Below the pieces are notes generated by a model. It was not told where the DNA came from and did not search any database. It saw only the letters and a list, made by a program, of their open reading frames with translations. DNA of 64,000 nucleotides. It comes from Xanthostigma xanthostigma. Taxonomy: Eukaryota; Arthropoda; Insecta; Raphidioptera; Raphidiidae. Shown here piece after piece: positions 5,871 through 63,860 of this stretch; positions within the stretch are counted from its first letter, which is position 1; every line of letters begins with the position of its first letter. The stretch is taken from contig OY754472.1 in assembly GCA_963575645.1 (NCBI GenBank), forward strand, positions 4,464,001-4,528,000. Reading direction: 5' to 3'. The position numbers were made by a program, and so were the translations under genes.

Positions 5871-6189
5871 AATGTCCAAGAAGCGGTGAATATTTTTGAA
5901 TAGAAGATTTTTTGAACGCTTGATATGAATGCCACTGTTAGGTAATTCTGAGAACTATTTGTACGAAATATGTGGTTTCGCATATCGGTTTTAACAACGA
6001 TGTCACTAACTGATAAGTGCCAATGAGGAAAAATTATGTAAAAAATATTGACATTTTCAGTGTCAACATTGTTGCGAATATTTACACTTAACTTTCCTGA
6101 ATGATTATTTTTATCTGAACCGCAAAACAGATGTTACTATTTCATGCAGGAAACCATTCATACAATTCAAATATCCCCAAAGAGACAAA

Positions 6190-6330
6190 GAATTGGATGC
6201 ATTATTAGAGGAAGATTCGTTCCAAACACAAAAAGAACTTGCAGTTACTTTAAAAGTCATTCAACAAGCAATTTCGCATCGCTTAAAATCGTTGGGTATT
6301 ATTCAAAAACAAGGACATTGGGTTGCTTAA
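6190..6330 (+). pseudogene. Mariner transposase fragment (N-terminal helix-turn-helix)
   Basis: The frame starting at 6190 reads ELDALLEEDSFQTQKELA, then IQQAISHRLKSLG and a QKQGHWV block before a stop at 6328. This order matches the second helix-turn-helix of mariner-family transposases, where a related block precedes the Tyr-Glu-Leu-Lys-Pro motif. Only about 46 residues remain; a KKPRR remnant follows after the stop. The DDD catalytic domain is absent, so it cannot be active. No terminal repeats could be assigned. Confidence 0.8.
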
Positions 6331-14971: not shown

Positions 14972-15434
14972 AATACCAGAAGGGCTTGTGACTTCTATGT
15001 TTGTACTGTACGGGTTTAACCTTGAAATGAATTGGGTTTCGATAAGAAAACAATACCAGTATTGTTTTCTTATCGAAACCCAATTCATTTCAAGGTTAAC
15101 AAATCACTTTTTCTGTGATCCTAATACTATAGTATTAGGATCGCAGAAAAAGTATAAAATGACAAGAGATTCTTCAGAATATTCAATTCAGTATTGACAA
15201 GCTCTTCTATAGAAGAGCTTGTCCCCACCTCAAGCTCTTCTAGTATTAGGATCGCAGAAAAAGTACAAAATACCAGAAGGGCTTGTGACTTCTATGTTTG
15301 TACTGTACGGGTTTAACCTTGAAATGAATTATTGGGTTTCGATAAGAAAACAATACTGAATTGATATTCTGAAGAATCTCTTGTAATTTTATAATTTTTC
15401 TGCGATCCTAATACTAGAAGAGCTTGTGGTGGGG
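14972..15434. repeat. Mosaic of nested palindromes built from reused modules
   Basis: Perfect palindrome P1 at 15,016-15,099 (41-bp arms), P2 at 15,106-15,153 (24-bp arms, one mismatch) and P3 at 15,196-15,223 (28 bp, perfect) are followed by an inverted-repeat element at 15,223-15,434 with 40-bp arms. An 85-88-bp module (14,972-15,056 and 15,269-15,356) occurs twice in direct orientation, and a further module (15,161-15,196) returns inverted at 15,351-15,384. No coding sequence. It could be a foldback transposon that has re-inserted into itself, or hairpin ends of a linear DNA element. Confidence 0.85.
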
Positions 15435-39685: not shown

Positions 39686-40305
39686 CTAGCGGTCCCGTCC
39701 GGTTTCACCCGGGTGTAAAAAAACGAATGGGAAAGGGAGGAACATGAGTACACACATTCATCTTAGTTTACCGAGATGAATGTTGTGTCCAAATTTCATG
39801 ATGATCGGAGTTACCGTTCAAAAGTTTTTGTCGATAAAAAGCAGAATTTATACTTTTTTTAACTAATAATTTTTTTTAAATTATTTAAATAAAATTAAAA
39901 TAAATTTAAATGTAAGCCTTAGAAGAAAGCAATGTAGAAAATAAAAAAAAAAAAAATATATATATATTCGCCCAACGTGGGGCTCGAACCCACGACCCCG
40001 ATATTGACAGTCGTGTGCTCTACCGATTAAGCTAGTCGGCGTTGTATTCTGACAACGCTAATATGAGTATATTTAGTTAGTGTATTTTACTTGAATAGAA
40101 GCTTATTTTTGAGATAAATTTTGCAACATGTTTCATTAATGCTCCGCTCCTAATGGTAGTAGCGTGATTTTATATAGCCTATAGCCTTCCTCGATAAATA
40201 GGCTATCCAACAAAAAAAAATGTTTTTCAATTTGAACCAAGTGTTCCTGAGATTAGCGCGTTCAAACAAACAAACAAACTCTTCAGCTTTATATATTAGT
40301 ATAGA
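39686..40305 (-). mobile_element. Complete Helitron, 620 bp, with tRNA-like insert
   Basis: In reverse it starts A^TCTATACTAATATATAAAGC and ends gaccgCTAG next to host T. It is collinear with 7370-8153, including the tRNA-like block and the AT-rich segment after it (attttctacattgct). Noncoding. Confidence 0.88.
39969..40040 (-). tRNA. tRNA-derived sequence inside the Helitron (not functional)
   Basis: The minus strand keeps TAGCTTAATCGGTAGAGC and GGGTTCGAGCCCC, and a 3' end GTTGGGCG typical of tRNA-Lys. The anticodon loop is CTGTCAA and the anticodon stem no longer pairs. It sits at the same position as the tRNA-Lys(CUU)-like block of 7370-8153. Confidence 0.7.
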
Positions 40306-41609: not shown

Positions 41610-41848
41610 ACTATCATTGCCTAAATACATTTCTACCGATCGTAGTCGGCCAGATTTCACGGTAACCCTGCTAACTGTCAAAAAGCATGTGGACTAAACG
41701 CGACGTCTATAAACATTACATAACACCTATATTGTAAGTGCGTAGATTCTAGAAATATTGCGTCGTTCTTTTCAGAAAGTACGTCGTGTTATCTAACCAC
41801 CTACTTAACGGGAAAAATGTTGACAATATTGTTTATAAAAACACTCAC

Positions 41849-42254
41849 CGAAAGTCGGTTTAGGCGTTTCTCCGTCCAATACTTCTTCACCATGTTGCAG
41901 CGAAAGCAACGCCTTCAACCACGCGTCCAGATCTTCCTCACTTTCCAAACCGATACAAAAGCAATCGTCTTTCGTGTAAAGTGCAATAACGTGCTTTTGT
42001 TTCAAATCCATTCGTTTGTTTATATTAAAACAGGTTTTCAGAGATATACTTCTCTTAGGTGCCTGATTGTTACGCCACTTTTTCTCACTGTCATAATATT
42101 CTAACCGCGCTGAAGAATCCGCACTTTCAGCTTTCAAAACGAAAAACTTCTTTTTCATCGTTCTCAATTTCCTCAAATAGCCCGTCCGCACCACTTCACC
42201 TTGTTGCGACGGATTATTTTTCGAACCCGTCGCAGTTATAGCTGAAGACGACAT
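41849..42254 (-). CDS. chico: Insulin receptor substrate (IRS/chico), first coding exon
   Basis: IRS proteins are adaptors that bind the activated insulin receptor and pass the signal to PI3-kinase. This exon encodes the N-terminal PH domain, which brings the adaptor to the membrane. Residues about 21-125 show the IRS-type PH signature: GYLRK, KKKFFVLKAES, RLEYYDSEKKWR, APKRSISLKTCFNINKR, HVIALYTKDD and a DAWLKALL helix. The exon ends in TTCG followed by GTGAGT (intron from 41,848), phase 1. The PTB domain and YxxM motifs must lie further left, outside the window or unseen. I chose the ATG at 42,254 (A at -3) over the in-frame ATG at 42,305, which has a poorer context. The first 20 residues are low-complexity Ser/Thr/Asn. 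Confidence 0.93.
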
Positions 42255-42277
42255 CGTGGTAGGATTTTGATGCGCAT

Positions 42278-42313
42278 TTAACCACGCTGCCACAAATACA
42301 CCCATTCATGCAT
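42278..42313 (-). other. Upstream open reading frame in the IRS leader
   Basis: An 11-codon frame starts at 42,313 (ATGCATGAATGG) and stops at 42,278, before the preferred start at 42,254. Three AUGs in different frames lie within 9 bases. If transcribed, they would dampen or delay initiation of IRS. Confidence 0.4.
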
Positions 42314-49520: not shown

Positions 49521-50844
49521 TTAATATACCAAACAAACCTTTTATATAATATTATAGACAACAGCAGTGATCTGTGTATTAATAGGCCGAGTGATCTAGG
49601 ACGACGGATTTGTGTGATTACAAAATATGGAATATCTCAAATAATTTGCTACATTAGTCATTTTTATTTTTTATTCTTCGTACACTTATCTAAACAAATA
49701 ATTGGAACAGAACAAATTTGCCTACTTATAAAAACAATTTTTAGGGGCGGCGGCGGAAAGTCATCTATTACTTAAGAAATGAGCAAATCCGGCACTGGAG
49801 AATAGAGATAATCTCTCTCAAGCTAAAAACTACTGAAATTATATACTAAATATTTCTTACACTTTATGCACTCCTAATCAATTACTGGCTAAACTCAGTT
49901 TAAATCTAGGATTTGGACGAGATAGAGAGGATTTAAATAAAATAAATAACCAACATTGATGGTTTTGTATTTTATTTTTTTTGTACCAGCCCCTTTAAAA
50001 TAGCTGCTTTATATAATATACAGGTATGTCAAGTGACTCATTACAAACAAGCGCGGTAAAGTAAAACAAACTGGTCTATACATTGTAAATCATTATGTTG
50101 CAAAAAGAAGACAAAAATGTCCGCAACGTCCAATGCTGGCTATACTTTATAGTATAGTCTAAGGCGGCTCTAAGCCCTAGGTTATACTAAAAAGCCGCCA
50201 TTTTTTCATGATTGCTTCTCCATTCTGTGCGTTGTATAGGTTTGTATCAAAGCTTAGGTTTTCCGGTTGTCTCTTTTTGTCCCTAATACTGCAAAGCTCG
50301 TGTTGTTCACATAAGATCAGATATCATTGAATAATAAAAAGTTGATCAAGGAAATAAGAAAACATTTTTTTTGTATTCCGCAGCGTGGATATACTGTTGT
50401 CTGTTCTTGCACTAATACAAACGTGAAAAGAGGATGGGAAGCGTACACGCGCACCGCCATTTTATGTGCAAACCCATAGATCTAAGTGCAAGTCAGATGG
50501 CAGATATATTTTTCGGCTTCGGTTTTTTTGTCTCTATGCTTTTTTAGAGTCCACGCAGTTCGTAATATTGCAGTTCTTCTGTCCACACGTAGAGTCTTGA
50601 ACGGCATAGGAAAAGCCACAAAATGCCGAGTTTATTGAAATTAAAACACCTCCAATATAATATTATGAAAAATGAAAAAAACGAGCAATCTTAATTATAT
50701 TTTGCTTACAAAACAAATTTTAAAAGTTTAAAAGACATTTAGTTGAATAAAAAATTTTCGTATCTGAATAAATTAAATAAATTATGCGAATTTTATTCGT
50801 ACAAATAAATAATAAGTTAATATGGCCACGTTGTTTACACATCT
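49521..50844. other. Spacer, no gene recognised
   Basis: gtctaaggcggctctaag near 50,158 and cggttgtctctttttgtccc near 50,260 are not repeated elsewhere. No coding feature recognised. Confidence 0.4.
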
Positions 50845-50980
50845 GCGGAGGCTCCATATTGAAATATGATTGTAGCAAAGAGCTCAGAACTTAGTGGAGG
50901 TATTTACTGCAAAATATTATGGAGTTACGTTGTTCTTGCATAAAAGTGTCTGTTTACAGATTAGGGTCACAGCAGTGTGA
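50845..50980 (+). repeat. Local unit copy 1 (unrecognised ~130-bp family)
   Basis: Contains agctcagaacttagtggagg, ttgttcttgcataaaagtgt and ctgtttacagattagg, in the order seen in six further copies up to 59,125. This is the most diverged copy. It carries a stop in the frame that is open in copies 3 and 5, which argues against a coding exon. Confidence 0.6.
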
Positions 50981-51439
50981 AGAGGCATTTACTTATTGTA
51001 TAATATTATCTTTTTATGCCACTTCATAAAAACCTGTATGTTTACCTTTCACGTGGATCCCATTCTTCGCAACGTAGAACAACAAGATATTATGTACAAA
51101 AATGTTTTGCTACACCCACGGAGTGTTCTCCATTTTATTTAAAAATAGCGGTTATTTGTAGCATGACTACTGTTCTTTCCCAGTTCTACAATGCCTAGAC
51201 TCTAGTTACTATAGAAACCTTCTTATCGGAATATTTCTTGAACACTCTTTTAACCAGAGCACTTCGCGTCCTGAGGCCGAATTCTACGTCAAAATACACT
51301 ACTAAAAGTCTGTAGGATGGCCACAACCAGATTCTCCAAAATTTTCGATACAAGAAGATGGTCTAAGCCCTAAGGTCTTCATATAGAAATTTAATAAACT
51401 AGCTGGACAAAATTCGGTAAGGCATTGAGAGACTACGAC

Positions 51440-51580
51440 GGGAGTGCCTAGCATTCATTTTTGATTGTGACTTGAATCAAGATCCTAGAGCCCGACAGAG
51501 GTTTGTTGTTTGTTGAATTAGATCTACACTTCCACTAAAGTGTCTGCTGAAAAATTAGGACAGCAGACTAGGAAACAGGT
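51440..51580 (+). repeat. Local unit copy 2
   Basis: Contains agcattcatttttgattgtg, gaattagatctacacttcca and the stem-loop gtctgctg...cagcagac. Closest to copy 4; the similarity extends upstream (ggacaaaatt..ggcattgagag). Confidence 0.7.
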
Positions 51581-52384
51581 AACCTTGCTACGAATTACAA
51601 TGCAAAGATTTATTTTATCTTGCGACGTAGGGTTAATTATTTCTACTGCAGTAGTTACCTACATGTTGGTACTCATAAGTCATAGAAGATACGAAGCGAG
51701 CTATTTTTGACTTGATCGAGGACAATAAATAAATAAAGAAATGGTTCATTGGAGTAGAAGCTCAGTACTTACACAAATTTCTTAAGTTGGGAAAATTAGA
51801 AATTTTCCATTTGCAAAACCACCAATAAAATTATTGCCTGATGATGCTGTACAAAGAAGTATTTTTTGTGAAACAATGATGAAAAAAATCACTTAGAACA
51901 ACATTATTTTCAATAATAAGTAAGTTATTTTTCCAGAAATCTAAATACTGGAGCATAGAGAATTTATATCTTTTGCATTATTTATTTATTTTATAATTGT
52001 ACACATTTTCAGCAATAATTAAATAATAAAATTCAACGGTTTTAAAAGCTCAATGTTTGAAATGGACTGATAAATGATTATAGTAGGTCCATTCTTAATT
52101 GATGGAAATATCGGTTCAAGAAGGAGTAATATCAATATTAAATTAAATGGGCGTCAATGTTGACAATGTCTGATGCCAGCTGCAAGATGACGCCCCTCAA
52201 AACGTTAGAACCTTTTCGATTAGTGTGTTTTTGTAACGATTAATAGGCCCCGTCACAAGATAAATGCCTTACAATCACGATCTTCTAATCTGGCACCCAA
52301 TACAATATTGCTTACATTTAAACTTACAAAAACGCTCAATTAATAAAAATATTTAAAACTGTTGAAACTAAAAGAAGTGAAGAA
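51581..52384. other. Spacer between unit copies
   Basis: AT-rich, no feature recognised. Confidence 0.4.
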
Positions 52385-52528
52385 GAAGTGCTACATCATA
52401 TTTTTTAGTATCCCTAGACTTAAGAACTCAGCAATCGGAAGAGGTTTTGTCAATTGATGTTGGACTTACATCACTCTTGCACCAAGATATCTGTTTATGT
52501 ATTAGGGATGCAGAACAGCTGGAATGAT
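52385..52528 (+). repeat. Local unit copy 3
   Basis: About 90% identical by eye to copy 5: gtgctacatcatatttt, agacttaagaactcagcaa, tgatgttggacttacatcac and agatatctgtttatgtat. A frame of about 45 codons is open across copies 3 and 5. Confidence 0.8.
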
Positions 52529-53124
52529 TATAATGTTTGGTATTGTATACGGCCATCCCGGTGAATTAATTACATATTGGAAGGTATTTCTAGACAACTG
52601 AAAACAGCTCATGCATTATGCAGAATGGGAAGAACTATGGCGATGAACGTTCAACAACAATAGAATACAACTCCAACCCATGGGCTACACCTTGCTAAAA
52701 TAAAAGAAAAAACGAAACTACAATAGGTAGCTCGAATATGTGAAGGACATAGGTATACTATATCCATGCACACCTCCTGAAAAGAGAATCTCCATCAAAA
52801 TGCTAATCATGCAATTATGCAACAATACAACTAAATTAATAATATTATATAGAATCACGTTAAACTTACCAAACATGAAACAATTTATGACATCCTTTAC
52901 GACAATCACTCCTATACAATATTTCAAAATTCTATTTTTTTAAGACATGCAGACAGATCAAATGGAATGCTAGAACCTGAAATAATAATTATCCTATTAC
53001 AAATAACAATATAAAATATTAAACCTCGCATATTTCAATTTTTCCCTTTATTATTTTGGCTGTTTCAGATGAAATTCATTTTGAAAACTTTTGGTTTGGT
53101 TAGAATTGACTAAAGACACGAGAT
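52529..53124. other. Spacer between unit copies
   Basis: Two short frames overlap antisense near 52,718-52,943; neither is recognisable. Confidence 0.4.
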
Positions 53125-53410
53125 TAGAAACGCTGCTAGATTTGCCTACTAGTTTTCTAGCGTTGGTTTTCTTGATCAATTAAAATTTTTATTTATTTAG
53201 TTTAAATCAATTTTCATAGAAAGGTAATAAAAAGAGTAAATTATCTTGAGCTTGAGCATCCAGACACCTGAGGTGTCTTGTTTTTGATAAACTCATTGAT
53301 GTCAGGTGTCTAAAATCCTCACTGGATAGATTCTGGTCGCGGGCCGTATGGAGATGACTTAGGACTGGATACGGCCTGTGGGCCGTATCTTTGGCATTAT
53401 AGTTAATTAT
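53125..53410 (-). repeat. Repeat Y end plus a relative of the 33,454 hAT
   Basis: 53,125-53,180 is a reverse match to repeat Y (ctagatttgcctactagttt). 53,210-53,410 is a reverse relative of 33,454-33,620 (aaattatcttgagcttgag, atcctcactggatagatt, ggccgtatctttggc), without a visible target duplication. Confidence 0.6.
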
Positions 53411-53453
53411 TTTGTTGGCATTCTAGTATACTGGTACCTATAAGCAATCTATA

Positions 53454-53735
53454 TCTATACCAATATATATAAAGCTTAAGAGTTTGTTTGTTTGTTTGAT
53501 TGAACGTGCTAATCTCAGGAACTACTGGTTCGACTTGAAAAATTATTTTTGTGTTGGATAGTCCATTTATCGAGGAAGGCTATAGGCTATATAAAACCAC
53601 GCTACGACCAATAGGAGCGGAGCATCAATGAAAAATGTTGCAAAATATAACTCAAAATTTGTCCGTCCGACAAAAACTTTTGAACGGTAACTCCGATCAT
53701 CATGAAATTTGGACACAATATTCATCTCGGTAAAT
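53454..53735 (+). mobile_element. Helitron, 3'-truncated; carries the MITE empty site
   Basis: Starts A^TCTATACCAATATATATAA, contains ggttcgacttgaaaa, gcggagcatcaatgaaaaat and acttttgaacggtaactccg, then breaks off after catctcggtaaa. It reads ggctataggctatat where the copy at 12,789 holds the MITE. Confidence 0.8.
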
Positions 53736-53864
53736 AATTGACACAATATTTATAAAAACGGTTTTTGAAGGAAAAACTTTAACTAGGATCTTTTCAGATG
53801 ATATTTTCTAACCTAGATTGGACAAAATCCTATAGGGATTCAGAGTGATCATTTTTTGTTGTGC

Positions 53865-53998
53865 TGTGGTGGTGCGTAGCATTCATTTTTGTCTGTGACT
53901 TGTATCAGGGTTTTAGAATCCAAGAGAGGTAATTTTTATTATTGAATTAGATCTACTCTTCCACTAATATGTCTGCTGACAGATTAGGATAGCAGACT
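53865..53998 (+). repeat. Local unit copy 4
   Basis: Contains ggtgcgtagcattcattttt, gaattagatctactcttcca and the stem-loop gtctgctgacag...agcagac. Closest to copy 2. Confidence 0.7.
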
Positions 53999-54034
53999 TC
54001 AAAATAGGGCAACCATGCAACAAATTCTACTAAT

Positions 54035-54260
54035 ATTATAAAGAGGTAAAGTTTGTAAGTTTGGGTGTAGGCGGTAATCTCCGAAACTACTCATCCGATA
54101 TCAAAAATTATTCACCAATATTTATAATGGACCTTCAGGATGGACATATAGATTATATATTATCGCGTTAAAATAAAAGCGCTTTTCATGGAGACCAATT
54201 TTGCAACTCAAGTCGACGAAGAAACGGTGGCAATTTATACAAATTCGGGCGAGTAACTAA
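54035..54260 (+). mobile_element. Helitron-like element of the GGAGACCAAT family
   Basis: Follows 38,740-38,925 (ccgaaactactcatccga, ttcaccaatattta, tggagaccaat, aaattcgggcga), ending without a clear CTAG. Confidence 0.6.
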
Positions 54261-54660
54261 TAAAACACATTTTGAAGCCATATTTCTTGTCCTTTAATGG
54301 AATAGGAAAATATGTTATTTGTGATATTTCGAAAATGTCGACCAAAATCAGACAAAATACATTTCTGATATTTTTCTTTCTATTAAAATAAAAAATCATA
54401 ACTGTTTTTTAATCATATGTTATTTTTTTAAGAAGAATCTGAAGCATTTGGGTCACAAAAATGTAATAATTTTGTCTGCTTCTTCTAATTTGAACAAGCA
54501 CATATAGGTATATTTTTTTATTTATTTACTTTCGAAATTAAACTTCTTTTGGCACGGTAGGGAAAAATCGATCCACGAGATTCAAAGTGTAACGAAACGT
54601 TGCAATGCATACATTATAAAATTCGGCCATACAACGTTGTACTATTATAGTGAGGTGAAA
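54261..54660. other. AT-rich spacer
   Basis: No feature recognised. Confidence 0.4.
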
Positions 54661-54725
54661 AGTATAGTGGCTGCCCTCGTAATCTAAAGGTCGTAGTTTC
54701 GATTCCGGCGCGGCGGTCGGTGTAT
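54661..54725 (+). tRNA. tRNA-Thr(CGU)-like relic
   Basis: Contains an anticodon-loop-like CTCGTAATCT, the variable segment AAAGGTCG and a B-box-like GTTTCGATTCC, followed by T runs. The stems do not pair properly and the 5' half is poor, so this is a tRNA pseudogene or SINE head rather than a functional gene. Confidence 0.35.
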
Positions 54726-54789
54726 ATTTATTTTTTTGTTTTTTTTTTACAATTACACCAATTTTCCATCTGTAGTGTGTAGTTTAAAT

Positions 54790-54960
54790 ACATAGTCTTC
54801 TTTTTAGTGTTACGTGCAAACGAAACTTTATACGGAATCACTTTGGTGTCAAATTTGAAGTTTGGCACAGATATAAATATGAGTGTGCTGGCCCAATCAC
54901 AAACGTGAAGTATAAAAAGATGAATTTTGACTCTGGGAGTTAATTTCAAGGGATAAAATG
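54790..54960 (+). mobile_element. Probable RTE-type LINE 3' fragment
   Basis: tttttagtgttacgtgcaaa, ggaatcactttggtgtc and a downstream gtgctggcccaatcacaaac resemble degenerate RTE 3' regions. The identity is weak. Confidence 0.35.
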
Positions 54961-55404
54961 GGAAATGAATGATTTTTCAAGGGTATCGTTTAATGTGTCA
55001 AATTAAAGTTTATGGAAGCATGAATACAACAATACATGAAATCATTTTTTAACAGTTTTTGATGAAAAACGTTTAGCAATTGCTTATCCCCTGCTCATGT
55101 CAGGTGAAGGATCGCTCAGAAAAATCTGAAAAAAGTCATGAACATTGAGAATTAGGTATAGATTGAAGGAAAATTATCAGGATTGAAAATTAGCCCGATT
55201 AATTGTTATAATCAATTTAATTGTTTATTTCTTTATAAGTTGCAGAAAAGTTGGAACACTCAAGTGACCAGCTGATGGCACGGAATACTAATTGTGCAAG
55301 TATAACTTGCACTCGACCGATTTTTTTGATGAATGGAACTAGTCTCTGTAATTTGCATAATATCATAAGAATTATAAAAGGAGTTGTAGAATTTATCTCG
55401 TCCT

Positions 55405-55550
55405 CATGGGTGCTACATCATATTTTTCAGTATCTCTAGACTTAAGAACTCAGCAACCGGCAGAGGTTGTGTCAATTGATGTTGGACTTACATCACTCTT
55501 GCACCAAGATATCTGTTTATGTATCAGGGAAGCAGAACAGCTGTAATGAT
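55405..55550 (+). repeat. Local unit copy 5
   Basis: Close match to copy 3. An ATG at 55,407 opens a 45-codon frame through the unit to a TAA; copy 3 keeps the same frame without the ATG. The stem tctgttt...aagcaga is present. Confidence 0.8.
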
Positions 55551-55643
55551 TATTGTTTCGTGTTCCCAGTGAAATAAAGTCTCGATGCTGACTCAGACTG
55601 CTGATGTTCGAATTTTGAACATTTCCTTTTATTTTATTAGTTT

Positions 55644-55854
55644 TTAATTAATTAATTACTTATTAAAAAATAAAGGATAGCTACTTCTTAGCACAACAGT
55701 TTTATTAGCGGATGTACATTTCGGGAGCGATGCTCTCATCTTTTAGTGTTTACTGAAGATGAGAGCATAGCTCCCGAAATGTACATCCGCTAATAAAACT
55801 GTTGTGGTAAGAAGTAGCTATCCTTTATTTTTTAATAAGTAATTAATTAATTAA
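55644..55854. repeat. 211-bp near-perfect palindrome
   Basis: Centred at 55,749, with arms of about 100 bp: ttaattaattaattacttat, aaggatagctacttctta, ttttattagcggatgtacat and tttcgggagc mirrored on the right with very few mismatches. The loop is about 12 nt. It would form a long hairpin. No coding sequence. A foldback element or a fresh inverted duplication is likely. Confidence 0.9.
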
Positions 55855-55896
55855 CCACATTAATTAATTTCAACCACAGTGCTGATACATTTTAAT

Positions 55897-56155
55897 TACA
55901 TAAAAACACAGATAAATTCCAAGCAAGCAGCTTTGACGTTATACGTAAAAACACGAATGACAGCTGTTCGCGACTATTAGCTAAAATGTAATAGGGTTGC
56001 TATGGATACGACATCTAAACAACAGTTAATAGGTGATTTTTTTACTGCCGCCCGAACGTACGTACTTCCCGCATCAGTGCGTATAATCCCACCAATGCGT
56101 AAATGTTAGACTTTCTGCCTTACAATTGATGCCGAAAGTATGTACTTTCGATCGA
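55897..56155 (+). repeat. Copy of the 4204 repeat
   Basis: Matches 4204-4460. After tttcgatcgag the hAT at 56,164 interrupts it, and the repeat appears to resume at 56,878 (gaagaaaa). Confidence 0.8.
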
Positions 56156-56163
56156 GGTATGAA

Positions 56164-56869
56164 CAGGGCTCGATCCAGCTATTTCGCCGCTCCGGGCAAA
56201 ATAATATTTGCCGCTTTTTACCCATGCGTTGTTCCATAGATGGTGTAATTTTTGAAGTGAAAACTTCTTTAGCGACGTTGTACACTTTTTTTGTAATGGG
56301 TAAAAAATGTTAAACTCGCGTCAGATCGTCAGATCGAAAATTTGTATAGAACGTTAGACATCTAGCGTTGAAATAACGTACATAAAAATGCAATCTATGA
56401 TACAAACCATTTTGATCGAAAATTCGTAAGACGTTAGTATATTCAAGTTTTAATTTTCGCCGGCACTCCCGGAGTACAAAGGGGTTTTTTTGAAGTGAAA
56501 ACTTCTTTAGCGGCGTTGTACACTTTTTTTGTAATGGGTAAAAAATGTTAAACTCGCGTCAGATCGTCACACCTGATCGTACCCAGTTCTTACTCACTAA
56601 GGTTTGAGTGTATATTTTTATACAACGTTAGACATCTAGCGTTGAAATAACGTACATAAAAATGCAATCTATGATACAAACCATTTTGATCGAAAATTCG
56701 TAAGACGTTAATATTCAAGTTTTCACTTCAGCCGGCACTCCCGGAGTGCAAAGGGATTTTTTTTTGTTTAACCATCTTTCAAATTTTAGCCGCCGACGCC
56801 GCGCCGTCCTCAATTTTGCCGCCCCGGGCAGTTGCCCGGTTTGCCCCCCCCCCCCTAGATCGGGCCATG
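56164..56869. mobile_element. hAT element, 706 bp, with internal tandem duplication
   Basis: Begins CAGGGCTCGATCCAGCT and ends in the inverted CTAGATCGGGCCATG. GGTATGAA flanks both sides (56,156-56,163 and 56,870-56,877). Inside, a block of about 240 bp (gaagtgaaaacttctttagc to ggcactcccggagt) is tandemly duplicated (56,252-56,484 and 56,491-56,755). No transposase. Confidence 0.9.
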
Positions 56870-57530
56870 GGTATGAAGAAAAAGCATTAATTAAGGAAGC
56901 ATACGTCGTCGTCACACGTTGAGAACAAGGAGGATGATGCAGCATCACTACTGTTCAGATGTTTAGGATACCAGCGACTGCAAGAGGTGTGTTTATAGTT
57001 TCTTTCAATAATATTGATGTACCACGTCACAGATTGACTGCTCTCAAGTTACTTTACCACCCGATTCTCGTCATCGCGTCGACCTGAAATCAGTCATTTT
57101 ACGACCTGTTTACATGTATGAAAAGCAGCTATTTTTTAACCGACTTCAAAAAAGGAGGAGGTTATTTATGTTAGACTGTATTTTTTTTTTGATCTGTCTT
57201 CGCCTCCTTCAAAAAAGTGTCTCTAGAAAGCGTAAAATGACAAAGATTTTAGGTGTATTTTATGTACGCTTTTTAGGGACCCTTTTATGAAGGAGGTTCA
57301 TTTTTTCTTTTTAAGCTTTTTTATAGGGGGTAGGGCAAACGTATATTTTTCCTTTCGATTCGAATAGTACAAAATGAAGAATATATTTGTTGAAATATTT
57401 TTTAAATCTTTTTCACTATTATAGTTTTATTCTTATTAGAAAATTTGTAATAATTGACTCGATTAAAAAATAAGAACAATGTTGTACTCGTAAATGTTGG
57501 TTGATAAAGGAAAGTTTTTTTTCAGAAGGA

Positions 57531-57670
57531 TGTGGTCAGTGGGGTTGGAGCTGCGTCATACATTTTTGTTTGTATCTAGATTCAGGAGTATAACCGAAGA
57601 GGTTTGGAGTAGATTTACGCCATTCTTGCACTAGATGTTCGTTTATATAACAGGAGAACAGAAAATATTA
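57531..57670 (+). repeat. Local unit copy 6
   Basis: Contains gctgcgtcatacatttttgt, cgccattcttgcactagatg and tcgtttatataacaggagaa. More diverged than copies 2-5. Confidence 0.6.
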
Positions 57671-58485
57671 AAATTAGCAAGTAAAATTCACTAGGCTTTG
57701 CTATTATTAATGCCATTTTTTTATTCTTTGAAGTACATAACTGAAATTTTACACCAAGAATAATAAAGGTACACTCGAGAACCTTAAATGGCCATTTTTT
57801 TATTTTTTTCATATTTTACCATAGATATTCGTCAACAAAGAACCTCATTTTTGTGCACTTACAAATCATTTATGTTATGCGAATAAATTAAAAAAAAAAT
57901 TGAAAAGAAGTTTGACCCTGCAGGTCATCCCTGTTATTTTCGAGTTCAAAACACTCAAAAATATATTAAATATAGCAAGAAGTTTATTTTTTAGCTCTTC
58001 GAGCTCAAAAAAAAAACACTTTGTTACGAAATTTTCGTTCACGATATCTCATGAACAAATGAACCGATTTTGATGCGATTTGCGGCAGTCGGCGAAATTT
58101 TTTAACCTAAAAAAGTAGTTTATTACAGAAAAATCGATCTCATAGGAATTTTACGAGTAATTTGAAAAAAACACTTTTTTACGATTTTTTCGTTCACGGT
58201 ATCTCGTGAACAAATGAACCGATTTTGATGCGGTTTGCGGAAATTGACGCAGTTTGTTAAGGAGAAGAGCTGATTAGATTTTGGAAACAATCGGTTTAGT
58301 AGTTTAGAAAATATTTTACAAAAACATATTTTTAAAAATTTTTGAAACATGTTTTTTTAAGATTACTCAAATTTTTTTTAGCCGAATCATTTCAAATTTT
58401 CAGGAAGTCTAAGTTCACCAAGATCACGTTAGATGCCGCAAACCGCGTTTCAGTCGGACACTCCGTTCAAAAGATATAAAAGGTT

Positions 58486-58492
<7 letters not shown>

Positions 58493-58518
<26 letters not shown>

Positions 58519-58520
58519 AT
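58493..58520. repeat. (CA)n microsatellite
   Basis: A run of about 12 CA units follows tacatacata. Confidence 0.9.
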
Positions 58521-58980
58521 AGCCCTACGGACATCATCGTTTCAAAATAGTTTCAATAGCTTCCTAGGACCTCAAAACGTCGAGATCTGGCAAAAACTCG
58601 ATTTTCGAAAATCGGGGTGAAACCAATAACTTCCCGATTTTTGAAAAACAAATTTTTTTTTTTATTTTTATAGCGGGAAGTTAAAAATAAATCTTTACCA
58701 CCCTACTATGTACTTTTATCTTTTACCAAAAAAAAAATCAATTGTGTAACTTCTACCATTTGATTATAATACAAATAACAAAATTCTATGTTTTCCGAAA
58801 AATTCGTATCTAACTTGCAAGTTTTTGCACGAGGTGGTGGTGTCAACTAGCGATCAGACTAACAATTTCGACTCATTACACAAATGAGTGGAACGGCTGA
58901 TTGATTGATAGTTGCGGGGAATGAGATTAAATAATTTAATTGTTTCCAAACGGTTCGAGTTTGCTAAGAAATTAATAACA

Positions 58981-59125
58981 CGGAGGTGGTGGCGGTGGTG
59001 TAGATTCATTTTTGGCTGTGTTTAGTCTTAGGAGTTCAGCACCTTACAGAAGTCTAGTCTATTGTTGCATCCATTCATGTACTAAGGTGTCTGTTTGAAT
59101 ATTAAGAGAGCAGAAGTTGGGGTAG
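58981..59125 (+). repeat. Local unit copy 7
   Basis: Contains ggtggcggtggtgtagattc, agtcttaggagttcagcacc, aaggtgtctgtttgaatatt and gagagcagaa. This is the last copy; none was seen beyond it. Confidence 0.65.
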
Positions 59126-60169: not shown

Positions 60170-60415
60170 TTAAGCAAACTTTTTGATAACGTAGTTGGCA
60201 TAAACTTCAATACCCTTCCACGTTTCTGTTACAGTGGGTTGAATTTTGCTTGGCGGCAGATCAAATCCAGCTGAACCTCCGCCCGGAAGTTCGATTGTGT
60301 AAGACAATTGAACACCAGCGACGCCTTTAAACCAATCGTCACTTCCTCCGGCTGCAGCGTACAGTACATTTGTTGAGCTTCCAACTGTGTATTTATTTCC
60401 AAGAGCTTTGTTGAC
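60170..60415 (-). CDS. Zinc carboxypeptidase (M14A, B-like), last exon
   Basis: Eighty-one codons from GTC AAC to the stop TAA at 60,170, after an acceptor TTTTTTAG at 60,416. It carries the substrate-contact Tyr (LYAAAGGSDDW, Tyr248 of bovine carboxypeptidase A), the specificity residue Asp at the 255 position (codon 60,340-60,338), and the catalytic Glu of YTIELPGGG (Glu270). It ends with the usual C-terminal helix (VTETWKGIEVYANYVIKKF). Asp255 is the hallmark of carboxypeptidase B, which removes Lys/Arg; carboxypeptidase A has Ile there. Phase 0 joins it to the exon at 60,855. Confidence 0.93.
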   Translation of the reverse strand, partial: VNKALGNKYTVGSSTNVLYAAAGGSDDWFKGVAGVQLSYTIELPGGGSAGFDLPPSKIQPTVTETWKGIEVYANYVIKKFA

Positions 60416-60462
60416 CTAAAAAATGAAATGTGTCTATATAACAAAAGTCCACAGAAAGACCT

Positions 60463-60663
60463 CATGAAATTTAATAATCTTGCTGGTAGATTGTATTTCC
60501 GGGGGATGTAACGGACATCGAAGCATGTCGCTACTGTTCGGAGACTCCTGAAACATCGAAGCATTCACTCTTCAACTGTGAAGCAGTCATGAGGCGAAGA
60601 CTCCGTCACCTCAACAATCCATTCCCATCGCCTGGACAGCTGCCTCTCGCCGAGACACGGTAA
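60463..60663 (+). pseudogene. LINE ORF2 C-terminus with CCHC motif, in a carboxypeptidase intron
   Basis: Antisense to the carboxypeptidase gene. The frame ends ACRYCSETPETSKHSLFNC, a Cys-x2-Cys...His-x4-Cys motif typical of the extreme C-terminus of Jockey/R1/CR1-type non-LTR retrotransposons, then 26 residues and a TAA at 60,661. The 5' part of the LINE is absent. The following 85 bp are its 3' UTR and match the SINE body at 22,885-22,750. Confidence 0.8.
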
Positions 60664-60750
60664 TTCCTGTACCGGCCATCTTGTTGAGGTTTTCCATAGT
60701 TTCCCTCAATAATTCCAGAGAAATATCGAGATGGTTTCTTATTTTTTTAT
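60664..60750 (+). mobile_element. LINE 3' UTR shared with the SINE
   Basis: ttcctgtaccggccatcttg, gaggttttccatagtttccc and aatatcgagatggttt match, in the same sense, the SINE body at 22,530-22,937 and the fragment at 46,160. The copy stops at a T-run, so the terminal (ATT)n part is missing here. Confidence 0.8.
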
Positions 60751-60854
60751 TTGCCTACAGATTCGGAACAACACCGGCCGCGAAAGTCTACATACTTGGA
60801 TATATATTTTATGATCGCTAAAGTGAGATAGGAATATGTCTTGTGAAAGATTAC

Positions 60855-61166
60855 CTCCAAACCAAGTGAGTGTAGTTCATCAGAATCGCTTGGCAAAGCA
60901 GAAGTGTATCCCCATGGGTACAGAAGGTAGTTTCCATAGCTGTGGAAAGTTAAGTAAAGTTTCACTTGATTTTTAACTTTGAGACCAAAGTCGCGAATTG
61001 CTCTGGTTTCTGCTTCGGAAAACGCGTTCGGACCAGCATACGTTTCAGAGCATGGGTTTGAACTAGCACCGATCTCCCTCCAATGGAAGTCGAAATTGCG
61101 GTTACCGTCGGTACCAATGCAAGATACGCCACTCACTTTCGAGCGAGTTTTTCTCCAAAAACGGTC
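60855..61166 (-). CDS. Zinc carboxypeptidase, exon with Arg145 and zinc ligand His196
   Basis: 104 codons between acceptor CTTTTAG (61,167) and donor GAG followed by GTAATC (60,854). It starts DRFWRKTRSK, then GTDGNRNFDFHW (Asn144-Arg145, which bind the substrate carboxylate), SNPCSETYAG (a conserved Cys) and YLTFHSYGNYLLYPWGY, whose His is the third zinc ligand (His196). Phase 0 at both ends. The residues are unbroken, so the exon looks functional. Confidence 0.95.
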
Positions 61167-61332
61167 CTAAAAGAATTTAATTCATTAACATTTCTCATTA
61201 CCTCTTGTAAATTGGTTAAAGAGAAACTACCTCAAGATAAAGATTGCAGTGGAGTTTGGATTCCAGCGTTTTTGGGAGTTAGAGCTCTCAGAAAATATCC
61301 TATTATCTATTATCGTAAATTATGACTCTTAC

Positions 61333-61638
61333 ATTTGTGAATGTGTATTCATACCCATCAGGGTTCAAAACCGGCAAAATGTACCAGTCTAATTTGTTGA
61401 TGAGATTACTATTGGCTTTGTTTTCAACCAGTTGCTGGATTGTATAGAGTGCCATGGCCGGTGCGATCCATTCGCGGGCATGAATTCCTGCATCTACCAG
61501 AATAGCTGGACGATTGCCATTGCCTCCGGTGGAGATCTTAAGTACGTTCATGTTGCGACCTTCGTATGATTTCCCGATGGTGATTACAGATGTGACCGAT
61601 GGGTATTTGGCTGCCAAATCGGCGAGATATGCATTTAT
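61333..61638 (-). CDS. Zinc carboxypeptidase, exon with HxxE zinc ligands
   Basis: 102 codons between acceptor TTCCACACAG (61,639) and donor AAT followed by GTAAGA (61,332). It begins INAYLADLAAKYPSV, has SYEGRNMNVLKI, then DAGIHAREW with the first two zinc ligands (His69, Glu72), and LPVLNPDGYEYTFTN at its end. The cut between propeptide and mature enzyme lies at or just before the start of this exon. Phase 0 at both ends. Confidence 0.95.
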
Positions 61639-61745
61639 CTGTGTGGAAAAAGTATTATCGATAAATAACTATCTAGTTCAAAAATCCAACTAACTCAGAA
61701 ATACCGTCAAGAGAGAGGGTCTTTGCTTAGCTTATTTTTGATGGG

Positions 61746-61806
61746 GCTTCTAGATGGTGATTACGTCGGCAATATTTATTTGCCGACGTAATCACCATCT
61801 AGAAGC
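61746..61806. repeat. Perfect 27-bp-arm hairpin in a carboxypeptidase intron
   Basis: gcttctagatggtgattacg with tcggcaa pairs exactly with 61,780-61,806 around a 7-nt loop. Probably a tiny foldback insertion. It is transcribed if the gene is, so it would form an RNA hairpin. Confidence 0.9.
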
Positions 61807-62450
61807 TTTCTGCTTACGTAATACTTGAATGGCCCCTGATTTGTAATTATGGGGGGAAAAAAATTATAAGATATATTGTCAAGCTGAGTAAATGATTATT
61901 AGTTTTTAAAATAAAATTTAAAATTGAGTTCTTAAACAATGATAGGCATTATTTTAGCCTCGTTATCAAGCATACTGATGATTTATTCTCTTGTTTAAAG
62001 ATTGTATTGTTATGCTATCTAGTATCTACTATTATATCTAAAATATTTATCTGTTAAAAAAAATTTAATTTGTCGGTTTATTCGGGTATTGCATGAAACA
62101 GCTAAACTAGTTTACGAAACTTCACATAAGCTACAATTTATAGGTTACATTCTAAATATCATATTAGAATAATTATCATATTAGGAATTTTCGGAAAACA
62201 TTAAATGAAAAACGAGTTTATCTAGGGCAAGGAGTGGCAAACAGCGGCTCGCGAGTCACGTGTGACGATCTTCTGAAATATTAAAAGTTAAAACCACGAA
62301 GTCTATAACCAGGAGACCTAGCTTCCTATGTTTCGAGATGGGCCGTTTTCTGGAAAACGCGAGATGGCGCTGTTATCTTTACCTGGGAAAACTTTGGTTC
62401 TTTTCACCTGTTTTTGCCATAGTTACCAAAGTTGTTTAAAATATTTATGA

Positions 62451-62630
62451 GTCACTATAGGGAGCTTTGATTAAACTAAAATAAAATTGTGGGGCGCATT
62501 TAGTAGAAAACTCTCATTTGTTTGTGATTGGAATTCATATTTAGCTTTCGACTGTCTTCTTCGAGCATAATGTAACTATAAATGCCCCCCACGATTTTAT
62601 TTTAGTTTAATCAAAGCACTCTGTGATGAC
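62451..62630. mobile_element. MITE with ~48-bp inverted repeats, in a carboxypeptidase intron
   Basis: The arm agctttgattaaactaaaat, aaaat.gtggggcgcattta is mirrored by the right arm ending at ctttgattaaact in reverse. Noncoding interior of about 75 bp. No target duplication was fixed. Confidence 0.8.
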
Positions 62631-62698
62631 TAATATTATTTTTTTTACTTGCAACATTGAGAGAAAATAAGCGAAAGCATGTTAAAAATGATAAATAC

Positions 62699-62792
62699 CT
62701 CTGCATGTCTGTTATAAGCTGTAAAGGATATTCTGCCACCATTGAGCTTCAACGAACGATCATCTTGCTCCTCGCTTTCATACTTTATTGTT
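62699..62792 (-). CDS. Zinc carboxypeptidase, short exon at the end of the propeptide
   Basis: 94 nt between acceptor TTTTTACAG (62,793) and donor GAG followed by GTATTT (62,698). Joined in phase to the previous exon it reads GTIKYESEEQDDRSLKLNGG, then RISFTAYNRHAE. This is the linker from prodomain to catalytic domain; FTAYNRH leads into INAYLADLAAKYPS of the next exon, as in other insect M14A enzymes. Confidence 0.88.
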
Positions 62793-63556
62793 CTGTAAAA
62801 ATAAATGTGGATTTTATAGAGAGTCCTTTTGACAGTAGCCTAGTAAAATTAGGCGAAAAAAAGGTCAAGCTTCTAAATAAATAATATAATAAACAAAATG
62901 CGAAAAGTTCATTGCGAAATCAGTTAATATCTCGCTTTCTATTTGTTTTGCGCTAATTTTAATCACTATAAAAATTGTTGACCTAAAAATTCTCTATAAA
63001 AAAGGTTATTTACTAATTTTACGCACGACCAATAATTTTCGACATATTAAGTCGAGAAAGGATTTAATCAAAGATGAATTCAAAAGACAGTTGGTCGTAC
63101 GCCTGTCAGCTACGGTAGAACAGTTAATTTGAAAGTGAGTTCAATGATTAAAACAAAGTTTCTTTCTCGCTCCTCTTTTTGCAATGCAGCCCAGGGAAAC
63201 AAAAAGGTTGAACAATCTTGGTTTAAAGGAAATATCATTTCAATCCAAGTTGGGCAGGAAATCCTCTAATTATGTATCTATTAAATATGTATTTTATTTT
63301 ATTTTTATTTGAGGAAATAAATTTTGAATTGAATCGATCAGTTATTTTTCTAGCAGAATCTATTTAAATTCTACAATGCTCTTCTTACATCTTTATATAA
63401 CAAACTTCCTGACAATTATCGCAATATTAGCTCGAGTGCTTTCAAGAAAAACATTAGGGATCTTACTTCTTTCCATCAACGAATTTATTAACTTAAACTT
63501 TTGTTCATTGTCTTCGTTTAACTCCTCAACCTTCTTAAATTAACATATAGGCTTAC

Positions 63557-63766
63557 CCTTCAACGTCTTCAATGAGTACTTCATAAGAAATGTTGAAATT
63601 TGTCAGCATAGCTTTAAACAGGACATCGATGGCTCCAGGTGGAACCATGATATCAGCAAGACTAGCCATTTTGTTCACATTCCAAACATCGATTTCGGGA
63701 AGTTTCGTAATTGCGTTCATCGCATGCATTTTTTCATTTGTCAGGTGAACGCGATAAACTTTGTAT
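63557..63766 (-). CDS. Zinc carboxypeptidase, activation-peptide exon
   Basis: 210 nt between acceptor GAATTACAG (63,767) and donor GG followed by GTAAGC (63,556). It encodes YKVYRVHLTNEKMHAM, LPEIDVWNVNK and FNISYEVLIEDVE, the Propep_M14 fold that keeps the enzyme inactive until trypsin-type cleavage. It starts in the last base of a codon, so one more exon with the signal peptide and first residues must lie upstream. The last 234 bp of the window hold only repeat sequence, so that exon is outside. With the other four exons it gives 388 residues, against about 420-430 for the full family member. Confidence 0.93.
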
Positions 63767-63796
63767 CTGTAATTCAAAGTAGATATAGTTATATTA

Positions 63797-63860
63797 AACT
63801 AGCGACCCGATCTGACTTCGCCTGGATTTGTAGATTGCCTATTTTTGATGCAGTGCAGGG
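63797..63860 (-). mobile_element. Helitron-type 3' end in the carboxypeptidase intron
   Basis: In reverse it reads aatccaggcgaagtcagatc then gggtcgCTAG before a T. This is the terminus of another Helitron subfamily; the 5' end was not found. Confidence 0.5.

Follow-up and report, generated by a model that had tools for sequence, protein, structure and literature searches.

The seven diverged units found in the window, the 64,000-nt stretch of DNA analysed here, form one of at least five clusters of a family that extends along about 132 kb of a single chromosome. The basic element of this family is a module of about 75 nt, which occurs alone or in groups of two or three, and the window units probably consist of two modules each. 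The best reading of the locus, which we hold tentatively, is a local family of paralogous putative noncoding-RNA genes built of repeated modules.

The window units are about 140 bp long, all lie on the plus strand and span 50,836-59,114; their bounds give the extent of homology and are approximate. Each was found by nhmmer, by a covariance model and by an external HMM, which was built without any window sequence:

50836-50974, plus strand: unit c1, the most diverged; covariance model 98.8 bits; external HMM E 2e-13
51434-51567, plus strand: unit c2; covariance model 126.2 bits; external HMM E only 0.0018
52380-52514, plus strand: unit c3; external HMM E 8.7e-11
53862-53996, plus strand: unit c4; external HMM E 6.7e-5
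55402-55536, plus strand: unit c5; external HMM E 9e-11
57539-57662, plus strand: unit c6; external HMM E 7.7e-8
58986-59114, plus strand: unit c7; external HMM E only 0.025

In leave-one-out searches, a six-unit profile recovered each seventh unit, with E values from 1.3e-9 (c1) to 2.5e-30 (c5), which confirmed all seven sites of the original prediction on the plus strand. In a whole-unit scan of both strands, left-out units scored 55-112 and the best other site in the window 26.7, so exactly seven stand out, and the earlier statement that the window holds no further copy was upheld. A candidate eighth copy at 56,922-57,052 scored 19.9, which is background, and at 50,400-50,416 the unit core had only an insignificant match (E 1.4 or worse).

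Searching 200 kb of flanking sequence with the seven-unit profile, we obtained 14 additional copies at E 1.3e-5 or better, the best decoy being at E 1.6. These copies keep to one strand within each cluster, and the five clusters use two strands. In clusters K3 and K4, two or three modules follow one another in tandem at a spacing of about 70-85 bp. The 3' module (B half) of the window units is common to the clusters outside the window:

50919-50982, plus strand: 3' module of c1
51511-51575, plus strand: equivalent in c2
52458-52522, plus strand: equivalent in c3
53942-54005, plus strand: equivalent in c4
55480-55542, plus strand: equivalent in c5
57610-57668, plus strand: equivalent in c6
59069-59120, plus strand: equivalent in c7

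The original prediction spoke of a unit of about 130 bp confined to 8.3 kb. The seven units are real and the family does occupy a single locus, but the unit was an incomplete description of the 75-nt module, and the family runs beyond the window.

We searched the 623-Mb genome with two units, two blocks and two patterns, and matches above control were found only on contig C9, at 4.51-4.64 Mb. A 28-nt core with three mismatches or fewer gave at least 13 matches, those listed all lying at C9 4514920-4635634, and the control gave none. The genome-wide DNA search with c5 recovered only c5 and c3, and that with c7 only c7. At the sensitivity of these searches the family is confined to the locus, the profile having covered C9:4444001-4708000 and the remaining genome having been covered by DNA and pattern searches, which miss diverged modules, K5 included. 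Scatter over both strands of the genome was absent from the DNA and pattern searches, in agreement with the earlier view that this is not a dispersed transposon. A 20-nt pattern had no match in viral contigs and hit eight prokaryotic contigs among genome contigs, which we regard as chance. Among phages, c5 matched 10 records at E 6, of which none reached 80% coverage. No description of the locus was found in literature listings and abstract openings.

The original prediction placed the units between a carboxypeptidase and an IRS gene. Pfam confirmed the carboxypeptidase, and the PH-domain exon fits IRS, an identity that was tested by the PH domain only:

41805-42305, minus strand: exon with PH domain of the IRS-like flanking gene (PF00169, E 5.1e-9)
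60170-63798, minus strand: M14 zinc carboxypeptidase with activation peptide, several exons (PF00246 and PF02244)

Near other clusters there are a GPCR-like exon at 4620720 and a gustatory-receptor-like ORF at 4640370, as we take them to be. Tpi is Z-linked in moths, and the two TIM genes that we located lie on C3 and C12; the family locus is probably off the sex chromosome.

Clusters K2, K3 and K4 carry blocks of the modules in identical order. In a joint alignment of K2 and K3, identity was 0.72 and 0.81 in the blocks and 0.45 in the spacer. When the parts were aligned singly, the single block reached 0.80 (shuffle mean 0.48) and the spacer 0.51 (shuffle mean 0.46, maximum 0.50). At both ends of the single block, identity dropped from 75-95% to 35-70% between adjacent 20-column windows. 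The K2/K3 spacer keeps slight homology and is crossed by one blastn alignment (62% over 758 columns), so the contrast between block and spacer is one of degree. In the module tree, modules at the same position in different clusters grouped together at four of five judgeable positions (supports: b2/d4/e4 90, d1/e1 93, d2/e2 84, d0/f2 98); at the fifth, d3 and e3 joined only with c6 included, and b1 stayed apart from d2/e2. This positional grouping implied that whole ordered module sets were duplicated. Since modules stay similar while the intervening DNA has changed, they probably have a function.

Within the window, c2/c4 and c3/c5 were the closest pairs, as predicted, with 75% identity (151 columns) and 87% identity (158 columns), respectively. 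The 144-nt core of c3/c5 was 94% identical, and homology of this pair ended sharply at about 52388 and 52531 (c3 coordinates). The duplication of a two-unit block, which had been proposed from these pairs, was not supported: spacers 2-3 and 4-5 have no detectable likeness, and divergence was 0.26 substitutions per site for c2/c4 and 0.068 for c3/c5, about fourfold apart. Only one similarity between spacers was found, a 62-nt stretch of 74% identity (c3-c4 against c4-c5), the other matches being repeats within one spacer. Both sites of this stretch also have matches elsewhere in the window. The differences between c2 and c4 avoid columns that the other copies conserve (p 0.003), and for c3/c5 the p value was 0.15.

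The modules are noncoding, as had been thought of the units. In each of the six frames, 13-19 of 21 modules contained a stop, against a protein-coding exon, and mean information by codon phase was 1.11, 1.11 and 1.29 bits, without codon periodicity. The suggestion that the units are exons found no support either: a scan of 49.9-60 kb, using home-made base frequencies, gave 19 splice sites on the plus strand and 11 on the minus strand, and the plus-strand sites were not placed around the units. We also found nothing to place the units in a known structured or small-RNA family. Rfam 15 covariance models gave no hit in the window units at gathering, none of 15 matches within units at E up to 10, and none of nine within modules at E up to 3 in the module blocks of L027, L035 and L037 (K5 left out). 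The weak matches outside units and modules were to miRNA, C/D and H/ACA snoRNA, bacterial and other families, and a near-perfect inverted repeat at 55644-55854 drew four of the 15 permissive ones. C/D boxes (C box RTGATGA with at most one mismatch, D box CTGA 40-130 nt away) were found in none of the seven units on the plus strand and in two (c3 and c5) on the minus strand, with a weak end stem. For the Pol III B box, two-mismatch matches were scattered on both strands with no common position except in c2/c4 and in c3/c5, the two close pairs.

Single units folded no better than dinucleotide shuffles (z -1.2 to +1.8 on plus, -1.25 to +2.0 on minus). The consensus fold of the window units gave z -2.5 to -3.2 on plus and -1.7 to -2.3 on minus. 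RNAalifold predicted no pairs for 21 modules across clusters, and block consensus folds of K2-K4 did not surpass column shuffles (z 0.77, -0.93 and 0.00 on plus, one from two sequences). Because the window-unit fold is absent from the wider family, we did not take it as proof of structured RNA. A 7-bp 3' hairpin common to the window units only had 89.8% of cells paired on A2, and 38 of 500 shuffles were as high. On the plus strand, the 5' arm of a unit paired better with the AGAGGT+variable arm of that unit than with swapped partners, at exact p values of 0.0585, 0.0020, 0.0002, 0.0016, 0.0087 and 0.0585 for six arm lengths, for one segment choice among 36 combinations, made after a six-pair segment scan (one at p 0.010), and on seven sequences including two closely related pairs. 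There was no such excess on the minus strand (p 0.10-0.25). A scan of 66 segment pairs (12 segments, both strands) gave p 0.0125 for f5 x var and, on both strands, 0.006 for f5 x P3 loop, with 14 pairs at p < 0.1 on either strand, near the chance number. We see here a hint of a covarying hairpin, in the window units only. These units also showed an excess of G over C (p 0.003) and of T over A (p 0.014) on the plus strand relative to random window segments, the G excess being small in c3 and c5.

In the noncoding-RNA gene reading, module sets in fixed order and orientation would have been duplicated and inverted along the locus, and the seven units of the window cluster would make up one of these genes or what is left of one. 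We infer that each cluster may be transcribed as a long RNA, whose modules would serve a partner (a protein or another RNA) as repeated binding sites, like the repeat domains of module-built lncRNAs. Confinement, ordered paralogy, blocks held against spacers and the plus-strand hints in the window units count for this reading; the lack of a fold across the family counts against it, as does a shared orientation that may be inherited from tandem duplication. A stricter form is possible at best: a lineage-specific noncoding-RNA gene family that arose and multiplied at one site, with the 75-nt modules selected as binding sites.

Alternatively, the clusters could consist of cis-regulatory modules (enhancers, boundaries or silencers) in arrays, each module being a composite protein-binding site and several of them being spread over an intergenic desert. 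A conserved linear core with neither coding capacity nor a common RNA fold would suit this, as would the better conservation of blocks than of spacers and the region at 4528-4618 kb, which holds K2 and K3 and where we saw no convincing gene among ORFs of at least 110 aa, judged by eye on the first 70 residues. However, orientation is uniform inside clusters, the composition of the window units is strand-asymmetric, and a typical single-factor site is shorter and less dense than the conserved stretch. We consider this explanation unlikely.

It is likewise doubtful that the family is a decayed local satellite, that is, an old, functionless tandem array of about 75 bp broken by transposon insertions and inversions. 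The tandem runs and the single locus speak for it, and the window-cluster spacers hold repeats recurring elsewhere in the window. Unit halves are also alike in K5 and the K3 single block, where 0 and 1 and then 0 of 300 shuffles matched as well; the numbers were 72 in the K2 single block and 180 in that of K4, and in the window 13, 15 and 32 for c2, c6 and c7, respectively, and 58-215 for c1, c3, c4 and c5. Against a satellite stand the block identity of 72-81% over a spacer near the shuffled level, the identical block order in K2, K3 and K4 with its mostly positional tree grouping, and the c2/c4 changes that avoid conserved columns. The block-spacer contrast and the kept order imply constraint, or else that blocks were copied repeatedly into an unchanged order.

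Unrecognised H/ACA-type guide RNAs, with the two-module unit as hairpin-H-hairpin-ACA in introns of a noncoding host gene, are very improbable. The unit length near 140 nt and the discrete edges of c3/c5 would be in line with them, and several module ends look by eye like ANANNA or ACA. Nevertheless, the form (hairpin-ANANNA-hairpin-ACA, closing stems beside the boxes) was found in none of the seven window units on plus and in one (c7) on minus, in a test so strict that most shuffles also yield none, and it was not found in three single blocks and g1. Among nine outside blocks, only the K4 pair folded in H/ACA-like fashion better than 30 of 30 shuffles, though its boxes differ from those the alignment would suggest; the K3 pair was matched by 5 shuffles of 30 and the K4, K3 and K2 triples by 2, 8 and 13, the K4 triple scoring better on the opposite strand. 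The placement of splice sites and the lack of an Rfam snoRNA match in the scanned units or blocks also argue against guide RNAs. An interspersed transposable element is not supported by the DNA and pattern searches, the listed copies all lying in about 132 kb of C9.

Conserved noncoding elements without a family are usually discovered by comparing species. Here, paralogous clusters within one genome stand in for that comparison, with blocks held, spacers nearly free and order kept. If the clusters are transcribed, they would be a compact case of a noncoding-RNA gene built from one short module, which was duplicated and inverted without spreading. If the lineage-specific form were true, this would be an RNA of a new kind, built of counted modules, in an insect gene desert.

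Among known systems, SINEs, MITEs and Helitrons are also discrete elements with sharp edges, as in c3/c5, whereas in our searches this family keeps to about 132 kb of 623 Mb, and no target-site repeats or terminal motifs were seen by eye. Satellite and minisatellite arrays share the module of about 75 bp and its tandem runs, but here the runs are short, unrelated sequence lies between them, three clusters have a common block order, and the block-spacer contrast is strong. Insect noncoding host genes carry intron-borne snoRNA paralogs, which resemble the window cluster in being same-strand diverged copies of about 140 nt that are separated by 0.6-2 kb of unrelated sequence; unlike these, the present family fails the H/ACA and C/D box and fold tests, has three-module tandem runs and shows no splice sites arranged around the units. 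roX, Xist and hsr-omega are long noncoding RNAs with repeated modules. Each is one gene, whereas the present family of putative RNA genes forms five clusters that use both strands, its locus probably lies off the sex chromosome, and no family-wide stem-loop of the roX kind was found across 21 modules by RNAalifold. What it has in common with these RNAs is diverged noncoding copies of an element of about 100 nt on one strand of one locus, conserved above the intervening sequence.

The original prediction of seven related units in the window held: a profile built from all seven (c1 to c7, about 140 bp each, 50,836-59,114) recovered every one of them there (E 1.9e-36 to 2.4e-25), with the next match at E 0.13, and the claim that they share a strand was borne out for 7/7 units, all on the + strand. 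Each unit was also recovered when left out of the profile (E-values: c1 1.3e-9, c2 1.9e-26, c3 1.5e-29, c4 4.7e-26, c5 2.5e-30, c6 2.9e-12, c7 1.6e-17), and in a full-length scan of both strands of the window the left-out units scored 55-112, compared with 26.7 at the best other place. The only similarity between different spacers was one 62-nt stretch, and this has matches in other parts of the window as well. Units c3 and c5 agreed at 94% over 144 nt, and at their 5' edge the matching bases fell from 12/12 to 1/12 within about 12 nt.

Other features were noticed in the window. The c5-c6 spacer contains a near-perfect, MITE-like inverted repeat (55644-55854; 99-nt arms, 98% complementary, 13 nt between), with which several weak Rfam matches coincide, and local direct repeats at 56249-56763 of 83 nt (99%), 101 nt (97%) and 53 nt (89%). 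A perfect 27-nt inverted repeat (61746-61806) lies between two carboxypeptidase exons. A tRNA-like match at 39969-40040 (-) (Rfam RF00005, 31.2 bits, E 0.015), where ARAGORN reports none, is perhaps a tRNA-derived repeat.

On contig C9, where the window occupies 4464001-4528000, we examined 200 kb of flanking sequence (20 kb preceding and 180 kb following it) with a profile of window units only, and obtained 14 further matches at E 1.3e-5 or better, in four clusters; the reversed-sequence control gave 7 matches, the best at E 1.6.

Clusters outside the window
K2, C9 4543-4544 kb, + strand, 2 profile matches
K3, C9 4563-4565 kb, - strand, 4 profile matches
K4, C9 4631-4637 kb, - strand, 7 profile matches
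K5, C9 4647 kb, - strand, 1 profile match

On the same flanks, a covariance model gave 9 matches at E < 0.01, located in K2, K3 and K4. A reciprocal profile of 16 modules outside the window recovered 7/7 window units (E 2e-13 to 0.025); those modules had themselves been found via the window units, so the test is not fully independent, and c2 (0.0018) and c7 (0.025) were no better than two chance-like matches at window 15.2-15.4 kb (0.0011, 0.0018). Outside any cluster, window 15110-15423 carries four short matches to the module 3' half on both strands (best E 0.0011), probably chance or a palindromic repeat. K5 apparently contains several degraded modules in a row, spaced about 90-100 nt apart (C9:4644641-4645054; starts 4644641, 4644733, 4644822, 4644921 and 4645016; E 1.7e-11 to 0.63), as well as further ones near 4646.6-4646.9 kb (C9:4646554-4646871). 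In K4, a weak match to SNORA63 (H/ACA) lies between modules on the opposite strand (positions 6128-6252 (+) of the flanking stretch L027; E 2.1, 26.1 bits where the gathering score is 90) and is probably due to chance.

The common piece is a module of about 75 nt, with the consensus TGGACTTACGTCGTTCTTGCACAAAAGTGTCTGTTTnTATATTAGGATAGCAGAA. K3 and K4 have their modules grouped as one pair, one triple and one single block, in identical order; K2 has the single block and a degraded triple. In the module tree, same-position modules of different clusters grouped together at 4/5 positions; as exceptions, the triple's third module also joined c6, and one module, b1, stood apart. Ordered sets were thus duplicated. 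Half-to-half similarity was clear in the K5 units (0 and 1 of 300 shuffles as good) and the K3 single block (0/300), was not found in the single blocks of K2 (72 of 300) or K4 (180 of 300), and was weak or absent in the window units (13-215 of 300). The window unit is likely an old dimer, which the window alone does not establish.

Counts from searches of the whole genome (623 Mb, 28 contigs) are lower bounds, and such searches miss diverged members: as a DNA query, c5 matched only itself and c3, recovering 1/6 other window units, and c7 matched only itself. A 31-place pattern, exact in 6/7 units (c6 excepted), had no other exact match; allowing three mismatches gave 8 further places (C1, C2, C3, C9) versus 6 in the reversed control, but two of them lie on C9, 3.6 kb apart and some 110 kb away from the window cluster. 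All 13 matches to a 28-place core pattern fell within C9 4514920-4635634 (control 0). The triple-block query matched in K3 and K4 only, and the single-block query in K2, K3 and K4 only. On these searches, the family is not an interspersed repeat.

Blocks and spacers were compared for signs of constraint. In the K2/K3 joint alignment, identity was 72% and 81% in the blocks and 45% in the spacer. Aligned alone, the spacer reached 51%, just exceeding all 40 shuffles (mean 46%, maximum 50%), and is therefore homologous but nearly saturated; the single block reached 80% versus 48% for shuffles, and one blastn alignment (62%) spans block and spacer. K3/K4 blocks were 75-79% identical, and their spacers gave no match better than E 0.017. 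Identity was 75-95% inside the single block and 35-70% outside (one five-column window set aside). Site rates vary in the window units (log-likelihood -775.98 without gamma rates, -769.92 with), and c2/c4 changes shun conserved columns (p 0.003; c3/c5, p 0.15).

The modules tested as not coding. On the + strand, the window units have an excess of G and T, and their two arms pair better with their own than with a swapped partner, both of which point to RNA. On balance we tentatively favour module-built noncoding RNA genes, with transcription and partner putative. Against an RNA reading we counted the absence of any structure common to the 21 modules or to the paralogous blocks. That the clusters are regulatory DNA seems unlikely, and we regard a decayed satellite as improbable to the same degree; H/ACA-type RNA is a very doubtful identity for the modules.

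Two TIM (triosephosphate isomerase) genes were found in the genome, at C3:19102624-19104340 and C12:13362386-13365802, the latter with TGA and TAA inside one matched stretch. Tpi is Z-linked in moths, and the original prediction took the insect to be a moth or butterfly; if Tpi is Z-linked here as well, C9 would be autosomal and dosage compensation a less attractive reading.
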